Assembly (NCBI RefSeq): GCF_900111195.1
Contig: NZ_FOGL01000001.1
Location: 372,001-436,000, forward strand
Source: Gracilibacillus ureilyticus
Lineage (GTDB): Bacteria > Bacillota > Bacilli > Bacillales > Amphibacillaceae
Direction: 5' to 3'
Length of the DNA: 64,000 nucleotides
Position numbers and translations under genes: made by a program. The notes beneath the pieces are model-generated. The model made no database searches and was not told the DNA's origin. It worked only from the letters and a program-made list of their open reading frames with translations. This document shows, in pieces, positions 50,164 to 58,645 of this stretch. How positions within the stretch are numbered: position 1 is the first letter of the stretch; the number at the start of each line of letters is the position of its first letter.

Positions 50164-50613
50164 CTAAAGCATTTCTAGAAACTGATTCTTTATTTTTTCC
50201 GCATCGTCTACTGTTTTGCATATAATAAGAATGGTATCATCTCCGCAAATGGTTCCAATAATTTCTTCCCAGCTTAAATTATCAATTAATGCACCCATTG
50301 CCTGTGCATTCCCCGGCAGGGTTTTCATTACTATAAAATGCGTTGCTGTGTCAATACTAACAAAGGCATCCATAATAAATCTTCTTAACTTATTTAATGG
50401 GTTGAATTTCTGGTCAGCAGGCAAGCTGTATTTATACTTACCCTCAGAAGTGGGAACTTTAACTAAATGAAGTTCTTTAATATCACGGGATATTGTTGCC
50501 TGTGTAATGGTATATCCTAGATCTTTGAAATGGACAACCAAGTCATCCTGTGTTTCTACTTCATTTTCGGTTATAATTTCTCTTATTTTAATATGTCTTT
50601 GCGCCTTATTCAT
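50164..50613 (-). CDS. argR: arginine repressor ArgR/AhrC
   Basis: About 149 aa. The N-terminal winged helix ([38 protein letters not shown]) binds ARG boxes; the C-terminal domain ([29 protein letters not shown]) binds arginine and hexamerises. It represses arginine synthesis and activates catabolism. The ATG at 50613 has GGAGGA at 7 nt; in-frame starts at 50643 and 50619 are less well placed. It lies between tlyA and recN as in Bacillus. Confidence 0.95.
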
Positions 50614-50651
50614 CAACATATCCTCCAAGTTAAAGATTGTCATACGAAAAT

Positions 50652-50672
50652 GGACTACCTTATCCGTAGTCC
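50652..50672 (-). terminator. hairpin between tlyA and argR
   Basis: Perfect 7-bp arms 50652–50658 and 50666–50672; on the minus strand followed by ATTTTC, so termination is probably partial. Confidence 0.5.
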
Positions 50673-50674
50673 AA

Positions 50675-51496
50675 TTACTTATTCGTCAATTCCTGATGTG
50701 CTTCCGTAACTACACGATCTACTTCTTCAGGTAAATTTTCATGTTTATTACTGTGGCTTCCTTTTTTTAACCATGCAAGAAATTCAATATTCCCGTCCCC
50801 ACCTGTTATGGGCGAGAAGGTTAAACCCGAAATCGAAAAACCAATGTTTTTAGCAAATGTTAAGATGTTTACACCTACTTGTTTGTGTACATCAGGATCT
50901 CTCACTATTCCTTTTTTTCCAACTTGATCTCTTCCAGCTTCAAATTGGGGTTTGATTAAGATAATGCAATCACTTTGTTCACTTAAAATATTATACAATG
51001 GCTCTAATATTAATCGTAAGGAAATGAAAGAGACATCCACCGTTGCAAAATCAGGCGTCTCATACTTTAACATATCGGGGGTTACATGCCTGAAGTTAGT
51101 TCTCTCCATAACCACTACCCTTGGATCATTTCTCAGTTTCCAATCCAGTTGATTATAGCCAACATCTATTGCATAACTAAGTTTGACACCATTTTGTAAA
51201 CCACAATCAGTAAACCCGCCTGTTGAAGAACCTACATCTACCATAATTCGATTATCAAGTGAAATGTTAAAAAATTTTAGTGCTTTCTCCAATTTCAGAC
51301 CACCACGGCCCACATATGGTATTAATTTTCCTTTAACTTCTAGCGGGATATCATCATCGACCTTGGTACCCGGCTTTTCCAGCCTGATTCCTTTAGAAAA
51401 AACCAAGCCAGCCATAATTGTTCTTTTCGCTTTTTCTCTGGTTTCAATCAGACCTCGATCGACGATTAACTGGTCCAGACGAATTTTTTTACTCAT
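50675..51496 (-). CDS. tlyA: TlyA family rRNA 2′-O-methyltransferase
   Basis: 273 aa. S4 RNA-binding domain (1–60, [22 protein letters not shown]) followed by an FtsJ/RrmJ-like SAM domain with [20 protein letters not shown] (about 89–108), [12 protein letters not shown] and [21 protein letters not shown]. In other bacteria TlyA 2′-O-methylates 16S and/or 23S rRNA; in B. subtilis the gene is yqxC. It starts 7 nt after the dxs stop. Confidence 0.93.
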
Positions 51497-51503
51497 CTAC
51501 TTA

Positions 51504-53402
51504 TCATGCCCTTTTTTTATTATTCTTTTGTGGTTGCATTAAATAGTTCATTTCTTTTATAACATTATCCTCTGTCAAACCGATTTCTTCCAGTAATTTA
51601 TCAACATTTCCATGTTCAATAAATCGATCAGGTATTCCCATCCGTTTCATTTTTGGATAATAATTATGCTCTTCCGCAAATTCTAATACCGCACTTCCGA
51701 ATCCACCTTGAAGTATTGATTCTTCAATCGTTAAAACAGGAATATTCCGTTTCATAATTTCGTGCAGCATTTCTGTATCCATTGGTTTTATAAAACGAGC
51801 ATTTACTACTTCCACATTTACACCATTTTTCTTCAACTTTTTACTAGCCGAAAGTGCCATTTCAACGGTTGTCCCGAAAGTCAATATGACAGCATCCGTC
51901 CCTTTCTCCAATACTTCCCATTTCCCAATCGGTATAGAGTGAAATTCTTCTTCCATCGGTACTCCAAGTCCGTTACCACGTGGAAAACGAAGAGCAATTG
52001 GACCATCATTATAATTCATGGCAGTATAGACCATGTGTTGACATTCATTTTCGTCCTTTGGCATCATTAATACTAAATTAGGTAAATGACGCAAGAAGGA
52101 GATATCAAAAACGCCCTGATGCGTTTCCCCATCTGCTCCAACAAGCCCGGACCGATCAATTCCGAATGCCACATTCAGATTTTGCCTGCACACATCATGG
52201 ACCATCTGGTCGTAGGCACGTTGGAGAAATGTTGAATATATTGCTACAAAAGGTTTCATCCCCTGTGTCGCCATACCAGCTGCCATTGTGACAGCGTGCT
52301 GTTCTGCAATCCCAACATCAAATAGACGATCTGGATAACGTTTCTGAAATTTCTCTAACTTTGACCCAAGGATCATCGCAGGGGTGATTACAGCAACTCT
52401 GTTATCTAATTCAGCTACTTTCTCAACCGCATCACTAACCACCTGACTCCAAGCCGGTTTATTGTCAACGGGTTTAATTTTTTCACCAGAATCAATTTTA
52501 TATGGACCGACACCATGCCATTTATCTTTTTTGTCCGTCTCAGCAGGTTGATAACCTTTCCCCTTCTTGGTAATTACATGAATTAATACCGGACCATCCG
52601 TTTTAGCAGCGTACTGCAGATTTTCTTCCAGATCTTTAAAATCGTGTCCATCAACTGGACCAAAATAAGTAAAGCCAAATTCCTCAAAAAGCATACCAGG
52701 AACCATAAAATATTTCATACTATCTTTTACGCGCTCAGCAGTTTGCGCAATTTTACCACCGACTGCCGGAATGCGTTTCATTAAGTATTCAATTTCATCT
52801 TTTACACGATTGTATTTACCCGCACTGCGCATTCTCCCTAGCGCTTTGTGCAGTGCCCCTACATTTCCAGCAATAGACATTTCATTATCATTGAGGATTA
52901 CAGTTAATTTCTTTTTTTCATGGCCGATATGATTTAGTGCTTCTAAAGCCATACCACCTGTTAGAGCGCCGTCCCCAATTATCGGTACAACGGCGTTCTT
53001 TTCATTCTTCAAGTCTCTTGCAGCAGCCATACCCATGGCTGCAGATAAAGAGGTGGAACTATGACCAGTTTCCCAAACATCATGTTCACTCTCAGACATT
53101 TTCGGAAAACCGCAAAGACCTTTGTATTGACGCAATGTGTCAAATTGGTCTGTTCTGCCTGTTAACATTTTATGAATATAGGATTGATGACCTACATCAA
53201 AAATAAGCTTATCATACGGACTATTAAAGTGTTTGTGTAAAGCTAAAGTTAACTCCACGACACCAAGGTTCGCTCCTAAGTGTCCACCTGTTACAGATAG
53301 TTTCTCAATTAAAAACTGGCGAATATGCATCGCAAGTTCCTCTAATTCTTCCACCGACAATTGTTTTAAAAATTTGGGATCTTTCATTTTGGTAAGGTCC
53401 AC
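51504..53402 (-). CDS. dxs: 1-deoxy-D-xylulose-5-phosphate synthase
   Basis: About 632 aa. ThDP enzyme joining pyruvate and glyceraldehyde-3-phosphate in the first step of the MEP isoprenoid pathway. [18 protein letters not shown] with the following LNDNEMSI is the ThDP site; [29 protein letters not shown] and [17 protein letters not shown] are conserved. The GTG at 53402, 9 nt from GGGAGG, gives an N-terminus [19 protein letters not shown] that lines up with B. subtilis Dxs. The in-frame ATG at 53429 has no ribosome site. It follows the OapA-like gene. Confidence 0.95.
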
Positions 53403-53510
53403 AAGCGGTGTCCTCCCTACTTCATTCATTTTAGTTACTTATCATCTGAATTATTAAATTCCTCATTCCCGAATCTAACAGCAAAAAAACGGAAACACGA
53501 AACTTGTCTA

Positions 53511-54086
53511 TTATTTTGACAATACTTTTATTTTAAGCTTATTCTCCAGGAATGCAATGATTTTACCAACAGTATAAATAATCCTGGTGGATGAATGTAT
53601 TGCCAGATACTTCCCTAAAGCTTTTCCTCCAACCGTTAGTGCAGCCACTAAGCTTGTTAAAAATACACTTAACGACAAATGTAACGTGGTACCTTCACTA
53701 TAACCGAAATTATTCGAAATTTGCAAGATAACAATAGCAGAGGCAGTTCCGCTAATTATACCAGAAATATCCCCAATTACATCATTACAGAAGCTTGCAA
53801 ATCGATCTGCATTCCTGACAATGGCAATTGCCTGCCTGGCACCGCTTACCTTCTCTGCTGCCATTGCATGAAATGGCACCTCATCTGCTGCTGTTGCAGC
53901 GATACCGAGCATATCAAAGAAAACACCTATTAATACGATAACTAAAACAATTAATAAGCCAACAATTGACATGACACCGCTTAAGACAGATGATGAAACA
54001 ATTGAAAAAATAGCCGCTAGCACAAATGTGATAACGGCAATACTCAAACTAAATTTTATCGACTTTTGCAATTGAGTCTTATTCAT
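53511..54086 (-). CDS. oapA: OLE-associated membrane protein A (OapA), CorB/DUF21-like
   Basis: 191 aa with about four membrane segments (about 12–34, 36–58, 105–125, 134–153). The central FFDMLGIAATAADEVPFHAMAAEKV and FCNDVIGDISGIISGTAS resemble the membrane domain of CorB/CNNM-type transporters without CBS domains. Its position directly after OLE RNA and before dxs is that of OapA, which binds OLE RNA as a dimer and places it at the membrane in Halalkalibacterium (Bacillus) halodurans. GAGGT lies 6 nt before the ATG. B. subtilis has no gene here. Confidence 0.88.
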   Translation of the reverse strand: MNKTQLQKSIKFSLSIAVITFVLAAIFSIVSSSVLSGVMSIVGLLIVLVIVLIGVFFDMLGIAATAADEVPFHAMAAEKVSGARQAIAIVRNADRFASFCNDVIGDISGIISGTASAIVILQISNNFGYSEGTTLHLSLSVFLTSLVAALTVGGKALGKYLAIHSSTRIIYTVGKIIAFLENKLKIKVLSK

Positions 54087-54130
54087 AAACTTACCTCATT
54101 TAAGTAAATCATTCTATTTTATATAAGCCA

Positions 54131-54150
54131 CCATTATGTATTAATAATGG
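54131..54150 (-). repeat. hairpin at the 3′ edge of the OLE RNA region
   Basis: Perfect 7-bp arms (54131–54137, 54144–54150) with a 6-nt loop, 45 nt before the oapA start. It has no strong T-run; it may mark the RNA 3′ end by processing or modulate read-through to oapA and dxs. Confidence 0.4.
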
Positions 54151-54154
54151 AATG

Positions 54155-54760
54155 GTCATTTATGCAGTAAAAACTGCGGCTTAGGTCCAGTAGGTTTTCC
54201 CAGACAGATACCGAATGTTGCCATTCTGGCGGTTCCCCTTTAAATCTGTCTTAGCGTTGTCACCAACAGCTAGACTGGATTACCACTTAGTCCACACTAT
54301 AATCCCGCATAAATGTCTTGAACAGAACAGCCTAGGAGATTTCCTCAACAACCTTTAACCATTTCCTAGCCTCTTTTGCAGTACGAATTTCATACAGAAA
54401 AACATGTCCTGATTAGTGGCCACCTAATCAGAACACTTTATTGCCTGTAATCCCCTTCGTACCACTCAAGGCAGGCTACGCTGCTCACAAAGATCCCGAT
54501 CCTTGTTAAAGCAGGTTCATACCCCATTCCATTCTCGCCCCTTGGCTAAGTGACAAAAACAGAGATGGGCCTCCGCGGAAGAAGGGTCTTCGCCCACATG
54601 CCTTTGTGGATCGCCCTTCAACCTTAACTCCCAGCATCGACCCAAGGCTGGGCGCCTCAAGCCAACACAAGGAACTTCATCGATGTGCCCTTTGGCGGAT
54701 TTTTAGGCCCGCCTTCAGAAATGGAGGATTGACTAGGATACTGCACCATTCCGTATTTAT
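54155..54760 (-). ncRNA. ole: OLE RNA (ornate, large, extremophilic)
   Basis: A roughly 0.6-kb stretch without a credible ORF, clearly GC-richer than its surroundings, with many local inverted repeats (for example TCTGATTAGGTGGCCACTAATCAGGA read on the minus strand, about 54407–54433, and a hairpin GCAG…CTGC near 54155–54170). It lies between ispA and the OapA-like gene, exactly the locus of OLE RNA in extremophilic Firmicutes. A promoter TTGAGT–17–TATAAT (54767–54795) places the 5′ end near 54760. The 3′ end is set by family size and is approximate. OLE forms a membrane ribonucleoprotein with OapA and other proteins linked to cold, alcohol, Mg and carbon/energy-stress responses. Confidence 0.9.
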
Positions 54761-54766
54761 ATTTAT

Positions 54767-54795
54767 ATTATACCATTAAATTAAGTTTTACTCAA
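54767..54795 (-). promoter_or_regulatory. promoter of OLE RNA–oapA–dxs
   Basis: On the minus strand TTGAGT (54790–54795), a 17-bp spacer and a perfect TATAAT (54767–54772), starting 3 nt after the ispA stop. Confidence 0.75.
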
Positions 54796-54798
54796 TCC

Positions 54799-55683
54799 TT
54801 ATTGATTTCGACTGCCTAAATAATCAACTAACTTTTCCAGCAAAGTCCCGTTTAGTTCCATTTCTTCTAGTAAGTTTTTTGCCTGTTTAACATATCTGTT
54901 TTTATGCTCAATTGCCCCGTTTAAACCTAAAAGGGATGGATAAGTTGATTTCTGATTATCCTCATCACTGCCGGAGGCTTTTCCCATTATTTCCGAATCA
55001 CCTATAACATCGAGTATATCATCCTGAATCTGAAATATTAACCCGATTAGATTACCGAATCGCTCCATCTTTTGTAGAATCATGCTGTCTGCTCCGGCTA
55101 AATAGGCCCCTGTAACGATTGAAAAAGTTAGCAGTCTGCCTGTTTTTAACTGATGTATTTCCTCTAATTGTTCAACAGATATGCTTTCCTTTTCAGCCTG
55201 CATATCCATTAGCTGACCTGCAACCATTCCTTCTAAACCACTTGCCGATGCCAATTTAGAGATAAGAAATACTTTCTCAGTGTCCGAATAGCAAGCTGCA
55301 TTTGAAATCACGTGAAAACTGTTGGTCAGTAATCCGTCCCCAGCTAAAATCGCTGTCGCCTCATCAAATTTCTTATGATTTGTTAACATTCCCCGTCGAT
55401 ATGTATCATTATCCATTGCCGGCAGATCATCATGAATCAGAGAATATGTATGGATCATTTCCAGTGCCATGGCTGCCGGATAAACTTTTTCTGAGTCACC
55501 GTTTAAACCTTCACAGGTTAATTTCATGAGAATTGGGCGCAGCCTCTTCCCACCCGCCTCGATGGAGTACTTTGTAGAATGATTTAGCAGCGGTGGCATG
55601 GAAAGCTTACTAAGATAAGCAGATAACAACTCGTTAAGCTTATCCTGCTCTTTTTTTAAATAATTCGATAAATTTGTATCCAC
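54799..55683 (-). CDS. ispA: farnesyl diphosphate synthase (IspA)
   Basis: 294 aa short-chain prenyl synthase. First Asp-rich motif DDLPAMD (85–91) and second DDILD (221–225); the substrate site GGKRLRP (44–50) is present. It makes C15 diphosphate from the products of the pathway that begins with Dxs. The GTG start is 8 nt from AGGAGG and directly follows the xseB stop. Operon xseA-xseB-ispA then OLE-oapA-dxs. Confidence 0.94.
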   Translation of the reverse strand: MDTNLSNYLKKEQDKLNELLSAYLSKLSMPPLLNHSTKYSIEAGGKRLRPILMKLTCEGLNGDSEKVYPAAMALEMIHTYSLIHDDLPAMDNDTYRRGMLTNHKKFDEATAILAGDGLLTNSFHVISNAACYSDTEKVFLISKLASASGLEGMVAGQLMDMQAEKESISVEQLEEIHQLKTGRLLTFSIVTGAYLAGADSMILQKMERFGNLIGLIFQIQDDILDVIGDSEIMGKASGSDEDNQKSTYPSLLGLNGAIEHKNRYVKQAKNLLEEMELNGTLLEKLVDYLGSRNQ

Positions 55684-55917
55684 CTAACTTTCCTCCTGTA
55701 TCGTAAATAACGATAACTCGCCATTCTCATCCATTATTTCTTTTAACTGTTTATCAGCTTGCACTAATTTGTCATGACAGATCTTGGATAACTTTGATCC
55801 TTCTGCATAATATTCCATTGCCTTCTCTAATGGAATGTCTCCTGCTTCCATTTTTCCAACTATTTCTTCTAACTTTTTGAGTGCTTCCTCAAAGGATAAC
55901 GATTGGTCATTAGCCAT
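55684..55917 (-). CDS. xseB: exodeoxyribonuclease VII small subunit
   Basis: 77 aa helical protein (SFEEALKKLEEIVGKMEAGDIPLEKAMEYYAEGSKL), stoichiometric partner of XseA in single-strand DNA degradation. The ATG at 55917 is 7 nt from GGAGGGG and overlaps the end of xseA by 8 nt. The in-frame ATG at 55935 lies before the ribosome site and is rejected. Confidence 0.95.
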   Translation of the reverse strand: MANDQSLSFEEALKKLEEIVGKMEAGDIPLEKAMEYYAEGSKLSKICHDKLVQADKQLKEIMDENGELSLFTIQEES

Positions 55918-57268
55918 TATTATTCCCCTCCACATTCTTTACTTTTCCAAATACTTTACCATCTGCTAATTGGACGGTGAAATTATCGCCAACTTTTACT
56001 TCAGAAGCTTTAGTAATTAAATCTTCATTCTCATTATAAGCGATGGAATAACCCCTTAACATAATATTCATTGGATTAAGAAGCTCTAATTGAGACAACT
56101 GATGGCTGAATTTTGATTTGTTTTTCTCGATAAGATGGTTCCCCTGCTGAACCAATTGATTATGTACGCTTTTTAATTTTTCTTCTTTTAAATGAATGAT
56201 TTTTTCCGGATTAATATATTCCAGTTGTTTATCCGCATACTTCCACTTGTCCCATTTTTCTTTGGCGTACCTGTTTATTGATAATTGTTTTCTTTCGATT
56301 AAACGATCCAGTATCTGTTCTTTCTCAGTTATAAATCGTTTCGGATATTTAAACGCATAAGATTCCTGCAATCTCTTTAAGTCTTGCTTCTGATGATGAA
56401 TGTATCTGTTATGATTGTTTGTTAACATCCGGTTTAACTGCTGCACATACTCCATTATTTCCTTCCTTGATGGTACGGCAATCTCTGCCGCCGCAGTAGG
56501 TGTTGCCGCACGAACATCTGCTGCAAAATCACTAATAGTAAAGTCTGTTTCATGACCGACAGCAGAAATAATCGGAATGGAGGATTGAAAAATAGCACGA
56601 GCGACTTTTTCCTCATTAAAAGCCCATAATTCCTCGATTGATCCGCCACCTCTGCCCAAAATAATCAGATCTATTCCTTTTAGGCTGTTTGTCTTATTAA
56701 TCGCTTCAGCAATCGAATCTTTTGCATATTTTCCTTGTACAAGAATAGGAACAACCAATACATTAACAAGAGGATACCGTCTTTCTAATGTTGTCAGTAT
56801 ATCTCTTACAGCAGCCCCTGTCGGTGAAGTTAAAACAGCAATTTTCTCCGGATATTCAGGTATCTCTTTTTTGTGCTGCTGGTCGAATATCCCTTCTTTT
56901 TCAAGCTTTTCTTTTAATTGTTCAAAAGCCAGATGCAATGCTCCAATTCCGTCTGGCTGCATCTCCTGAATGTAAAGCTGATATTGCCCGCTTGATTCAA
57001 AGACGCTTACATTCCCCAGCAGCAGTACTTTCATTCCGTCTTCTGGCTTAAAGTCCATATTCATATTCTGGCTCTGAAACATGACAGCTCTTATACTGGC
57101 ATTATCATCTTTTATTGTCATATACATATGGCCTCTGCTGTGGTGTTTAAAATTAGAAATTTCCCCTCTTAGCCAGATATTACTTAAATGCTTGTCTACA
57201 TCAAATTTCTTTTTAATATATCTGGTTAAAGCCGTTACCGAAAGATATTTATCCTCCATTAACAACAC
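55910..57268 (-). CDS. xseA: exodeoxyribonuclease VII large subunit
   Basis: About 452 aa. OB-fold domain (about 1–100, VTALTRYIKKKFD, HMYMTIKD), catalytic domain with TSPTGAAVRDI (about 152–162), GRGGGSIEELWAFN (about 202–215) and VGHETDFTISDFAADVRAATPTAAAEIA (about 238–265), then a long coiled coil. Possible starts are GTG 57268, TTG 57265 and ATG 57259; an AGGA site fits the first two better. Confidence 0.95.
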   Translation of the reverse strand: MLLMEDKYLSVTALTRYIKKKFDVDKHLSNIWLRGEISNFKHHSRGHMYMTIKDDNASIRAVMFQSQNMNMDFKPEDGMKVLLLGNVSVFESSGQYQLYIQEMQPDGIGALHLAFEQLKEKLEKEGIFDQQHKKEIPEYPEKIAVLTSPTGAAVRDILTTLERRYPLVNVLVVPILVQGKYAKDSIAEAINKTNSLKGIDLIILGRGGGSIEELWAFNEEKVARAIFQSSIPIISAVGHETDFTISDFAADVRAATPTAAAEIAVPSRKEIMEYVQQLNRMLTNNHNRYIHHQKQDLKRLQESYAFKYPKRFITEKEQILDRLIERKQLSINRYAKEKWDKWKYADKQLEYINPEKIIHLKEEKLKSVHNQLVQQGNHLIEKNKSKFSHQLSQLELLNPMNIMLRGYSIAYNENEDLITKASEVKVGDNFTVQLADGKVFGKVKNVEGNNNG

Positions 57269-57330
57269 TCATTTCCTGCAAATATTAACTTCTTACTATT
57301 TTAGGTAAGCTCCGCAAAATAAATCTTAAT

Positions 57331-57364
57331 AGAAAAGGCCATTAGCAATAATTGCAATGACCTT
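57331..57364 (-). terminator. hairpin after folD
   Basis: Imperfect 14-bp stem (57335–57348 with 57351–57364); on the minus strand followed by TTCTATTAA. It may reduce read-through from folD to xseA. Confidence 0.5.
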
Positions 57365-57389
57365 ATGTTGTTTAAAAACATTTCATAAA

Positions 57390-58250
57390 TTAACTATTTA
57401 CACCATTATGTATTTTTGCTGATTTGATTGTATTATGCAATAGCATGGTAATTGTCATTGGTCCAACACCTTTTGGAACAGGTGTGATGAAACTTGCTTT
57501 TTCTTTTGCACTCTCAAATTCAACATCCCCAGTTAATGTACCTTCCTTTGTCCGATTCACACCGACATCTATTACTACTGCACCGTCTTTAATATAGTCG
57601 CCATTGATAAAATGCTCCATCCCAACTGCTACTATTAGAATATCTGCCTGATTGATATATTTTTCCATATCATTAGTCCTGGAATGACAATAGGTTACTG
57701 TTGCATTTTCGTTTAATAGCAATTGACCTACCGGTTTACCGACGATATTACTTCTGCCTATGATAACAGCATGCTTTCCTTCGATCTTAATATCCTTCGA
57801 TTTCAGCATTTGAATAATGCCATAAGGTGTACAAGGAAAGAATGTATCTTTACCTGTCATCATTCTTCCGATATTAATTGGATGGAAGCCGTCAACATCT
57901 TTCTCTGGTGTTATTGTTTCAATTACTTTTTGTTCATTGATATGCGCAGGTAATGGCAGCTGAACGAGAATACCATGTACCTCTTCTTTATTATTTAATT
58001 CGTTGATTAGTGATAATAACTCCTCTTCTGATGTGGAATCTGGTAATGTAATTAAGTCTGATTCTACACCCACATATTCCGATGCTCTTTGCTTCCCAAG
58101 CACATAGGATTTAGAAGCAGGATCGTCCCCGATTAAAATAACGGTTAAGCCAGGAATAATTCCTTTCTCTCTCAAGTCCAGTACTTCATTTTTCATTTCG
58201 TCTCTCATTGACTGAGCTAATTCACTTCCATAGATAACTTCTGCTGCCAT
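57390..58250 (-). CDS. folD: methylenetetrahydrofolate dehydrogenase/cyclohydrolase
   Basis: 286 aa bifunctional folate enzyme. Catalytic Y49 and K53 in SYVLGKQRASE, QLPLPAHINEQKV, the PCTPYGIIQML loop, and the NADP site VIGRSNIVGKPVGQLLL (about 162–178). The C-terminus has DVGVNRT and TPVPKGVGPMTITMLL. GGGGGAAG precedes the ATG. It follows nusB by 17 nt. Confidence 0.96.
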   Translation of the reverse strand: MAAEVIYGSELAQSMRDEMKNEVLDLREKGIIPGLTVILIGDDPASKSYVLGKQRASEYVGVESDLITLPDSTSEEELLSLINELNNKEEVHGILVQLPLPAHINEQKVIETITPEKDVDGFHPINIGRMMTGKDTFFPCTPYGIIQMLKSKDIKIEGKHAVIIGRSNIVGKPVGQLLLNENATVTYCHSRTNDMEKYINQADILIVAVGMEHFINGDYIKDGAVVIDVGVNRTKEGTLTGDVEFESAKEKASFITPVPKGVGPMTITMLLHNTIKSAKIHNGVNS

Positions 58251-58267
58251 GATTTCTTCCCCCTATA

Positions 58268-58645
58268 TTATAACATTTTTGATAAAACACCATTTATAAA
58301 TTTACCTGATTTATCGTCACCAAATATATGAGCAATTTCGATTGCTTCATTTATCACAACACTGGGAGGTGCATCTTTTTCATAAAAAAGTTCATATGTT
58401 GCAATCCTCAGCAATGTTCGTTCAACTGTTGCTAAACGATTCAATGACCATTTCTCCAGGTGTGCGGATATTTTAGTATCAATTTCTTCTTTATTCTCTA
58501 CAACACCATTTACTAAATTAATTAAAAAGGAATCCTGTTCTGTCTCATCGATTAAATAATTTCTTGCTTCTTCTACATTATATTCTTCTCTGTCCAGCGG
58601 AAAAAGAATTTGCAAAGCTTTTTCTCGTGCAGTTCGTCGTTTCAT
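58268..58645 (-). CDS. nusB: transcription antitermination factor NusB
   Basis: About 125 aa all-helical protein. It binds boxA with NusE (S10) and supports rRNA transcription. Begins [17 protein letters not shown]; the tail [25 protein letters not shown] is diagnostic. The ATG at 58645 is 9 nt from AAGGAG; a longer in-frame start (58705) has no such site. Confidence 0.95.

Follow-up and report, generated by a model that had tools for sequence, protein, structure and literature searches.

The window, by which we mean the whole 64,000-nucleotide stretch of the Gracilibacillus ureilyticus genome that was analysed, carries what is almost certainly a canonical Gracilibacillus ole-oapA locus making a stress-protective OLE particle. 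Few bacterial RNAs of unknown biochemistry are as large as OLE, and the site is an ordinary, complete member of this known class. The explanation as a whole draws on a covariance-model match, a covarying fold, a conserved promoter, the genes of four partner proteins and the co-occurrence of OLE with OapA. None of the papers searched names OLE RNA together with Gracilibacillus.

A preliminary description of this DNA, made from its letters, had pointed to a non-coding, structured and GC-richer stretch of ~0.6 kb lying between ispA and the gene of a 191-aa membrane protein and followed by dxs, and had named it OLE RNA. The coordinates, base composition and stop codons agree with this layout, and the search with the Rfam covariance model that the description had proposed settled the identity. 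RF01071 matched the stretch over positions 1-616 of its 616 with a score of 541.1 bits (E 6.7e-156; gathering score, 50 bits), while no second family rose above its cut-off in the Rfam search of the window. This score ranks second among the 35 genomes with an RF01071 match. The alignment to the model contains no large deletion, and both P7 and P8 are present, so the RNA is full-length and belongs to neither variant 1 nor variant 2 of OLE (described in PMC11332333). The RNA retains 239 of the 249 strongly conserved letters (capitals in the model consensus), with 10 differing, and 153 of the 159 model pairs are standard, with 6 non-standard. Its GC content is 0.463, a level reached by only 0.03 % of 6337 sliding 630-base windows, compared to 0.369 for the window. 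Each minus-strand frame of the stretch contains 10-13 stops, with the longest open run being at most 61 codons. A coding stretch at this position was ruled out by stops in all frames; one plus-strand frame stays open for 85 codons.

The genes on the minus strand follow the order xseA, xseB, ispA, ole, oapA, dxs, a TlyA-type methyltransferase gene and argR (Table 1). The ole gene lies directly upstream of oapA in the window and in 80 of 80 named loci, which are the best 80 of 553 loci encoding an OapA relative, were found through OapA and may omit records of the source genome. Among the matches listed, the closest named relative of the window's OapA is that of Gracilibacillus oryzae (91 % identical), with other Gracilibacillus proteins at 75-85 %. 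The source genome (G000; 38 contigs, 4.07 Mb, 99.99 % complete) contains a single OLE. The argR gene (window 50164-50643) lies downstream of ole in the same direction, and ArgR features in a review as a candidate OLE RNA partner not yet published (PMC12265935).

Table 1. Features of the ole-oapA locus and of related genes; positions are those of the window unless a locus handle (L) precedes them.
Feature	Position	Strand	Basis or remark
xseB + xseA, exonuclease VII	55684..57268	-	upstream
ispA, polyprenyl synthetase	54799..55683	-	upstream of ole
Putative ole extended -10 promoter	54767..54795	-	TTGAGT (54795-54790), 17-nt spacer, TG-n-TATAAT (54772-54767)
ole, full-length OLE RNA, 630 nt	54136..54765	-	RF01071 match
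Nearly invariant GGCACAUCGAUGAAG stretch	54675..54689	-	between first hairpin and P5
P5 loop CGCCCAG, putative kissing-loop partner between OLE monomers	54648..54654	-	assigned by position
P6 apical hairpin CACAAAGGCAUGUG, putative other kissing-loop partner	54595..54608	-	assigned by position
P9 hairpin	54404..54436	-	self-complementary loop UGGCCA (54422-54417)
oapA, 191-aa protein, distant CNNM relative	53511..54086	-	ORF; PF01595, 20.4 bits
dxs, 1-deoxy-D-xylulose-5-phosphate synthase	51504..53429	-	
FtsJ/S4-domain (TlyA-type) methyltransferase + argR	50164..51496	-	downstream of dxs
OapB	between adk and infA		matches solved OapB 7k9b, E 5.6e-31
OapC, YbxF-type	L109:1947-2198		before rpsL; passes NF010125, 115.9 vs cut-off 113
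MpfA-type genes, source genome	L112:855-2159, L113:833-2173		
Six intact orphan OapA	L114:4614-5207, L130:4191-4808, L131:4543-5175, L132:4285-4914, L133:4373-4957, L134:4469-5062		

We assessed the fold in a MAFFT alignment of 58 sequences, the window's own and those from 57 of the 80 named loci (best 80 of 553), using the structure from the window's Rfam match. Over 158 pairs, 90.9 % of cells were paired, and 106 of these pairs showed changes on both sides. The covariation score was 0.353 compared to 0.151 for shuffled alignments and at most 0.093 for slid structures, although a structure taken from the window's own match is somewhat favoured over its slid versions. None of 500 shuffles reached any of the five observed covariation values, a comparison in which related rows can exceed shuffles. 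Pairing was weak in helices 7, 8 and 12 (53, 30 and 53 %), which correspond to the hairpin before P9 and the outer part of P9. Taken together, these comparisons argue that the OLE fold is under selection.

The most conserved elements of the alignment include the putative contact sites. The GGCACAUCGAUGAAG stretch was identical in 48 of the 58 sequences, with one change in nine and two changes in one, and it would correspond, in approximate register, to the sites reported for OapA and OapC (k-turn). The P5 loop was identical in 56 of 58 sequences and the P6 hairpin CACAAAGGCAUGUG in 44 of 58, with the GGC of the P6 loop present in all 58. The first hairpin's loop, which we took by position as the A-rich P4 loop, likewise contained AAAAA in 58 of 58, and the P9 loop read UGGCCA in 44 of 58 and kept its GGCC core in every sequence. 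The P9 segment (54439-54404) had a predicted folding energy of -16.8 kcal/mol (z -5.4). Kissing-loop and dimer contacts between OLE monomers have been reported (PMC12265935).

The P9 hairpin is followed by five U (window 54436-54399), an arrangement reminiscent of a weak terminator within the RNA. At least five U follow P9 in 7 of the 11 aligned Gracilibacillus sequences and in 11 of 58 overall. Premature termination at this site is unsupported, since the five terminator-like sites found on both strands of 51400-58500 compare with 4.3 expected and are thus within chance. The locus resembles the OLE class in all 616 model positions, in its helices including P7-P9, in the putative dimer-contact loops, in its site before oapA and in having its own promoter, but differs from it in the ten changed letters and the U5 after the P9 hairpin.

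The 191-residue neighbour, which had been proposed to be OapA, has precisely the distribution of OLE: both occur in the same 35 of 41 genomes, the source genome included, and the remaining six (G017, G024, G027, G032, G035 and G036) have neither. OLE and OapA are kept in 17 of 17 genomes of the genus searched, and across 397 genomes of the order OLE was found in 225 and OapA in 226. The extra OapA genome (G063), picked out by comparing the lists by eye, has a weak match (E 1.5e-4). This co-occurrence has already been published (PMC11332333), and oapA has been stated to occur only in ole-containing organisms (PMC9723947). In G127 and G198, both of this order, a full OLE sits beside an oapA whose match breaks across two frames, so the co-occurrence of OLE with intact oapA is imperfect. 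These split genes (L152:864-1422 and L151:816-1383, respectively) could reflect real loss or sequencing error.

The DxxxD motif of OapA (named in PMC11332333) is kept in the window as D102/D106 and is invariant in 21 sequences; mutating it in B. halodurans (D100A/D104A) worsens the phenotype (PMC9723947). OapA has a weak match of 20.4 bits to the CNNM/MpfA/CorB family (PF01595) and may share its fold, with four transmembrane helices, but differs in falling below the Pfam cut-off of 28.4, in having neither a CBS nor a CorC domain and in carrying DxxxD. The best predicted model of OapA contains long helices (mean pLDDT 71, pTM 0.59; the other four models, 48-60), and the archaeal CNNM protein MtCorB supplied its first three Foldseek matches with probabilities of 0.99-1.00 and E-values of 0.017-0.21, none of them at or below 0.001.

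Homologues of OapB and OapC, for which the preliminary description had advised a search elsewhere in the genome, were both found. The Pfam KOW model search missed OapB, and the gene was found by its position instead. The OapC gene is the one of YbxF type and not the paralogue YlxQ, judging from its model match and its place before rpsL; the other L7Ae gene (L111:2200-2520, after nusA) best matches YlxQ models, below their cut-offs. The bS21 gene is present in one copy. The locus is like the published ole-oapA of H. halodurans in its OapA with DxxxD, in its OapB, OapC and bS21 genes and in its own promoter. This clean, complete set of RNA, OapA, OapB, OapC and bS21 in Gracilibacillus makes a useful comparison, and it changes no idea about OLE.

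OapB matched in 35 of 35 OLE-bearing genomes (E 2.3e-31 or better). The match was reported without a stop in 27 of these and with one internal stop in eight, in which the open frame still reaches the end or nearly so (99-117 aa). No intact OapB was found in the six OLE-less genomes, and four of them gave no match at E 0.001. In the other two (G024 and G027), which also lack OapA, broken remnants with a frame change or stops lie before infA (L115:2044-2387 and L116:2097-2267). The absence of intact OapB from near relatives without OLE suggests that OapB mainly serves OLE there. Because OapB has been reported also from species without OLE, we regard this coupling as a local trend built on few independent losses. 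At their ispA site, the six OLE-less relatives gave no OLE relics with nhmmer (one query sequence, E up to 10). In one of them a gap of about 560 bases separates ispA from dxs (L120:913-1486); no listed frame in it exceeds 69 aa, and Rfam gave nothing noteworthy there.

The source genome differs from H. halodurans, which is reported to be without mpfA (PMC11332333), in encoding two complete CNNM-CBS-CBS-CorC proteins, which are MpfA-type by domain architecture. The OLE particle could therefore be largely redundant here, with the two MpfA-type transporters doing the same job. OLE-bearing species are reported to tend to have at most one MpfA (PMC11332333), whereas at least two CorC_HlyC matches were present in 19 of the 35 OLE-bearing genomes, the source included (71 matches, mean 2.0), a sample that leans on one genus (17 of 35); the six OLE-less genomes contained 16 such matches (mean 2.7). 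The OLE-MpfA anticorrelation is thus weak in this sample, and the presence of more than one MpfA-type gene beside OLE makes a simple replacement view less convincing in this group. Nevertheless, we consider redundancy of the particle unlikely, as OLE and OapA have both been kept throughout the 17 members of the genus that were searched, and the CorC_HlyC domain count differs from the paper's custom MpfA model and includes a few matches that are fragments or below cut-off.

The preliminary description had also placed a near-consensus promoter of its own before ole. Such a site is present in the window, and it runs to 54767, right beside 54765, where the model match begins. The number of promoter-like sites of this kind in the region was itself within chance (29 found compared to 23.9 expected, sd 4.9), and the argument for the promoter comes instead from its conservation in the 55 bases upstream of the conserved RNA start in the 80 relatives (best 80 of 553). 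We preferred motif counts over per-locus site scoring because site scoring favours TG. The pattern TGnTAnnnT occurred in 79 of these 80 relatives (shuffled mean, 10.2; controls, 11 in ispA coding sequence and 1 at the oapA start), and the stricter TGnTATA(A/T)T in 67 of 80 (shuffled mean, 1.2; controls, 0 and 0). TTGAG alone was found in 53 of 80 (shuffled mean, 6.0; controls, 3 and 10), and TTGAG with the extended -10 at promoter spacing in 52 of 80 (shuffled, 0.04; controls, 0 and 0). The -10 pattern ended 13-17 bases before the anchor in 69 of the 80. These counts indicate conservation of the predicted ole promoter beyond chance among nearly all of the 80 relatives (best 80 of 553). Since B. 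halodurans ole has already been reported to have its own promoter while also being part of a large operon (PMC9723947), this promoter is expected and not new.

The preliminary description went on to propose that this single promoter makes one transcript for OLE, OapA and Dxs, as it may do, perhaps alongside other promoters: no terminator-like site was found in the ispA-ole, ole-oapA and oapA-dxs gaps, and those on the minus strand fall inside ole (two) and inside oapA (one). The same arrangement would fit a stretch that serves mainly as a 5' leader of oapA-dxs, regulating the isoprenoid operon, and not as a free RNA, as it lies directly before oapA and dxs follows oapA in 57 of the 80 relatives (best 80 of 553). 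We find such a leader very improbable. In the other 23 of these 80 relatives no dxs was found between oapA and the tlyA-type gene while ole-oapA stays, so linkage to dxs is not universal (L030, L035, L043 and 20 more loci). The presence of the RNA instead tracks OapA (35 of 41 genomes; 225 and 226 of 397), and a free RNA of ~630 nt has been reported in B. halodurans (PMC9723947). A decayed or non-functional copy with a merely full-length look, to which the ten changed letters and the 6 of 159 non-standard pairs might point, is effectively ruled out by the second-best score of 35 genomes, the retained putative dimer-contact loops, the intact promoter and an intact oapA 91 % identical to its nearest named relative among those listed.

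For the canonical ole-oapA locus that we favour, the conserved promoter, probably together with read-through from the ispA operon, would drive transcription of the OLE RNA, which would then be freed by processing; its 3' end is reported to be processed (PMC11332333). Two OLE RNAs would pair through the loops of P4, P5/P6 and P9, OapA would hold the paired RNAs at the membrane, OapB, OapC and bS21 would bind defined sites on OLE, and the resulting particle would aid the cell under stresses such as cold, alcohol or excess magnesium. Binding, dimer, membrane location and stress phenotype come from published work on H. halodurans and from the Clostridium structures, and we infer by analogy that the whole scheme applies to this species. 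A membrane-spanning P3 and a metal-ion link are both proposals from the literature (PMC12265935, PMC12286853). The window adds nothing to the proposed mechanism and removes nothing from it.

One genome of this genus (G004) encodes a second OapA that is 47 % identical to the window's and lies on a different contig from OLE. We searched for further such orphans with the G004 protein as query in 29 genomes (G004, G009, G063 and 26 with more than one OapA match). Intact second OapA genes were found in G181, G187 and G100 (67-70 % identical to the G004 orphan) and in G174 and G272 (52 %); the copy in G057 is broken. Orphans thus occur in one of the 17 genomes searched from this genus and, as five intact and one broken, among 397 of the order. 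All seven orphan-bearing genomes have one OLE match and a normal ole-oapA pair each, and neither nhmmer nor Rfam detected a hidden OLE in the 9.5-10 kb around the seven orphans (within about 4 kb). A tree split the six intact orphans from 23 canonical OapA with support of 100/99, at a point where the program warns that long branches meet. The orphans keep DxxxD, and KNA(P/E) replaces the canonical RNAD.

In the available parts of the literature on OLE RNA and OapA we found no mention of a second, orphan OapA; the 'paralog' passages of PMC11332333 that were available concern MpfA and YbxF/YlxQ. The orphans do not contradict the statement in PMC9723947 that oapA occurs only in ole-containing organisms. 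We tentatively suggest, with rather less than even confidence, that OapA is not matched one to one with an OLE gene and that the orphans might be members of the OLE particle in mixed dimers or RNA-free ion transporters of CNNM type. If this were true, RNA-dependent and RNA-free roles of OapA would be separable, and the orphan lineage offers a natural test of the role of OapA away from the OLE gene. Two of the orphans, those of L133 and L134, have as neighbours a MerR-like regulator and a gene whose N-terminus looks heavy-metal-binding (L133:5404-7767 and L134:1935-4293), both named from reading the sequence, which suggests a metal-linked or mobile setting for these two genes.
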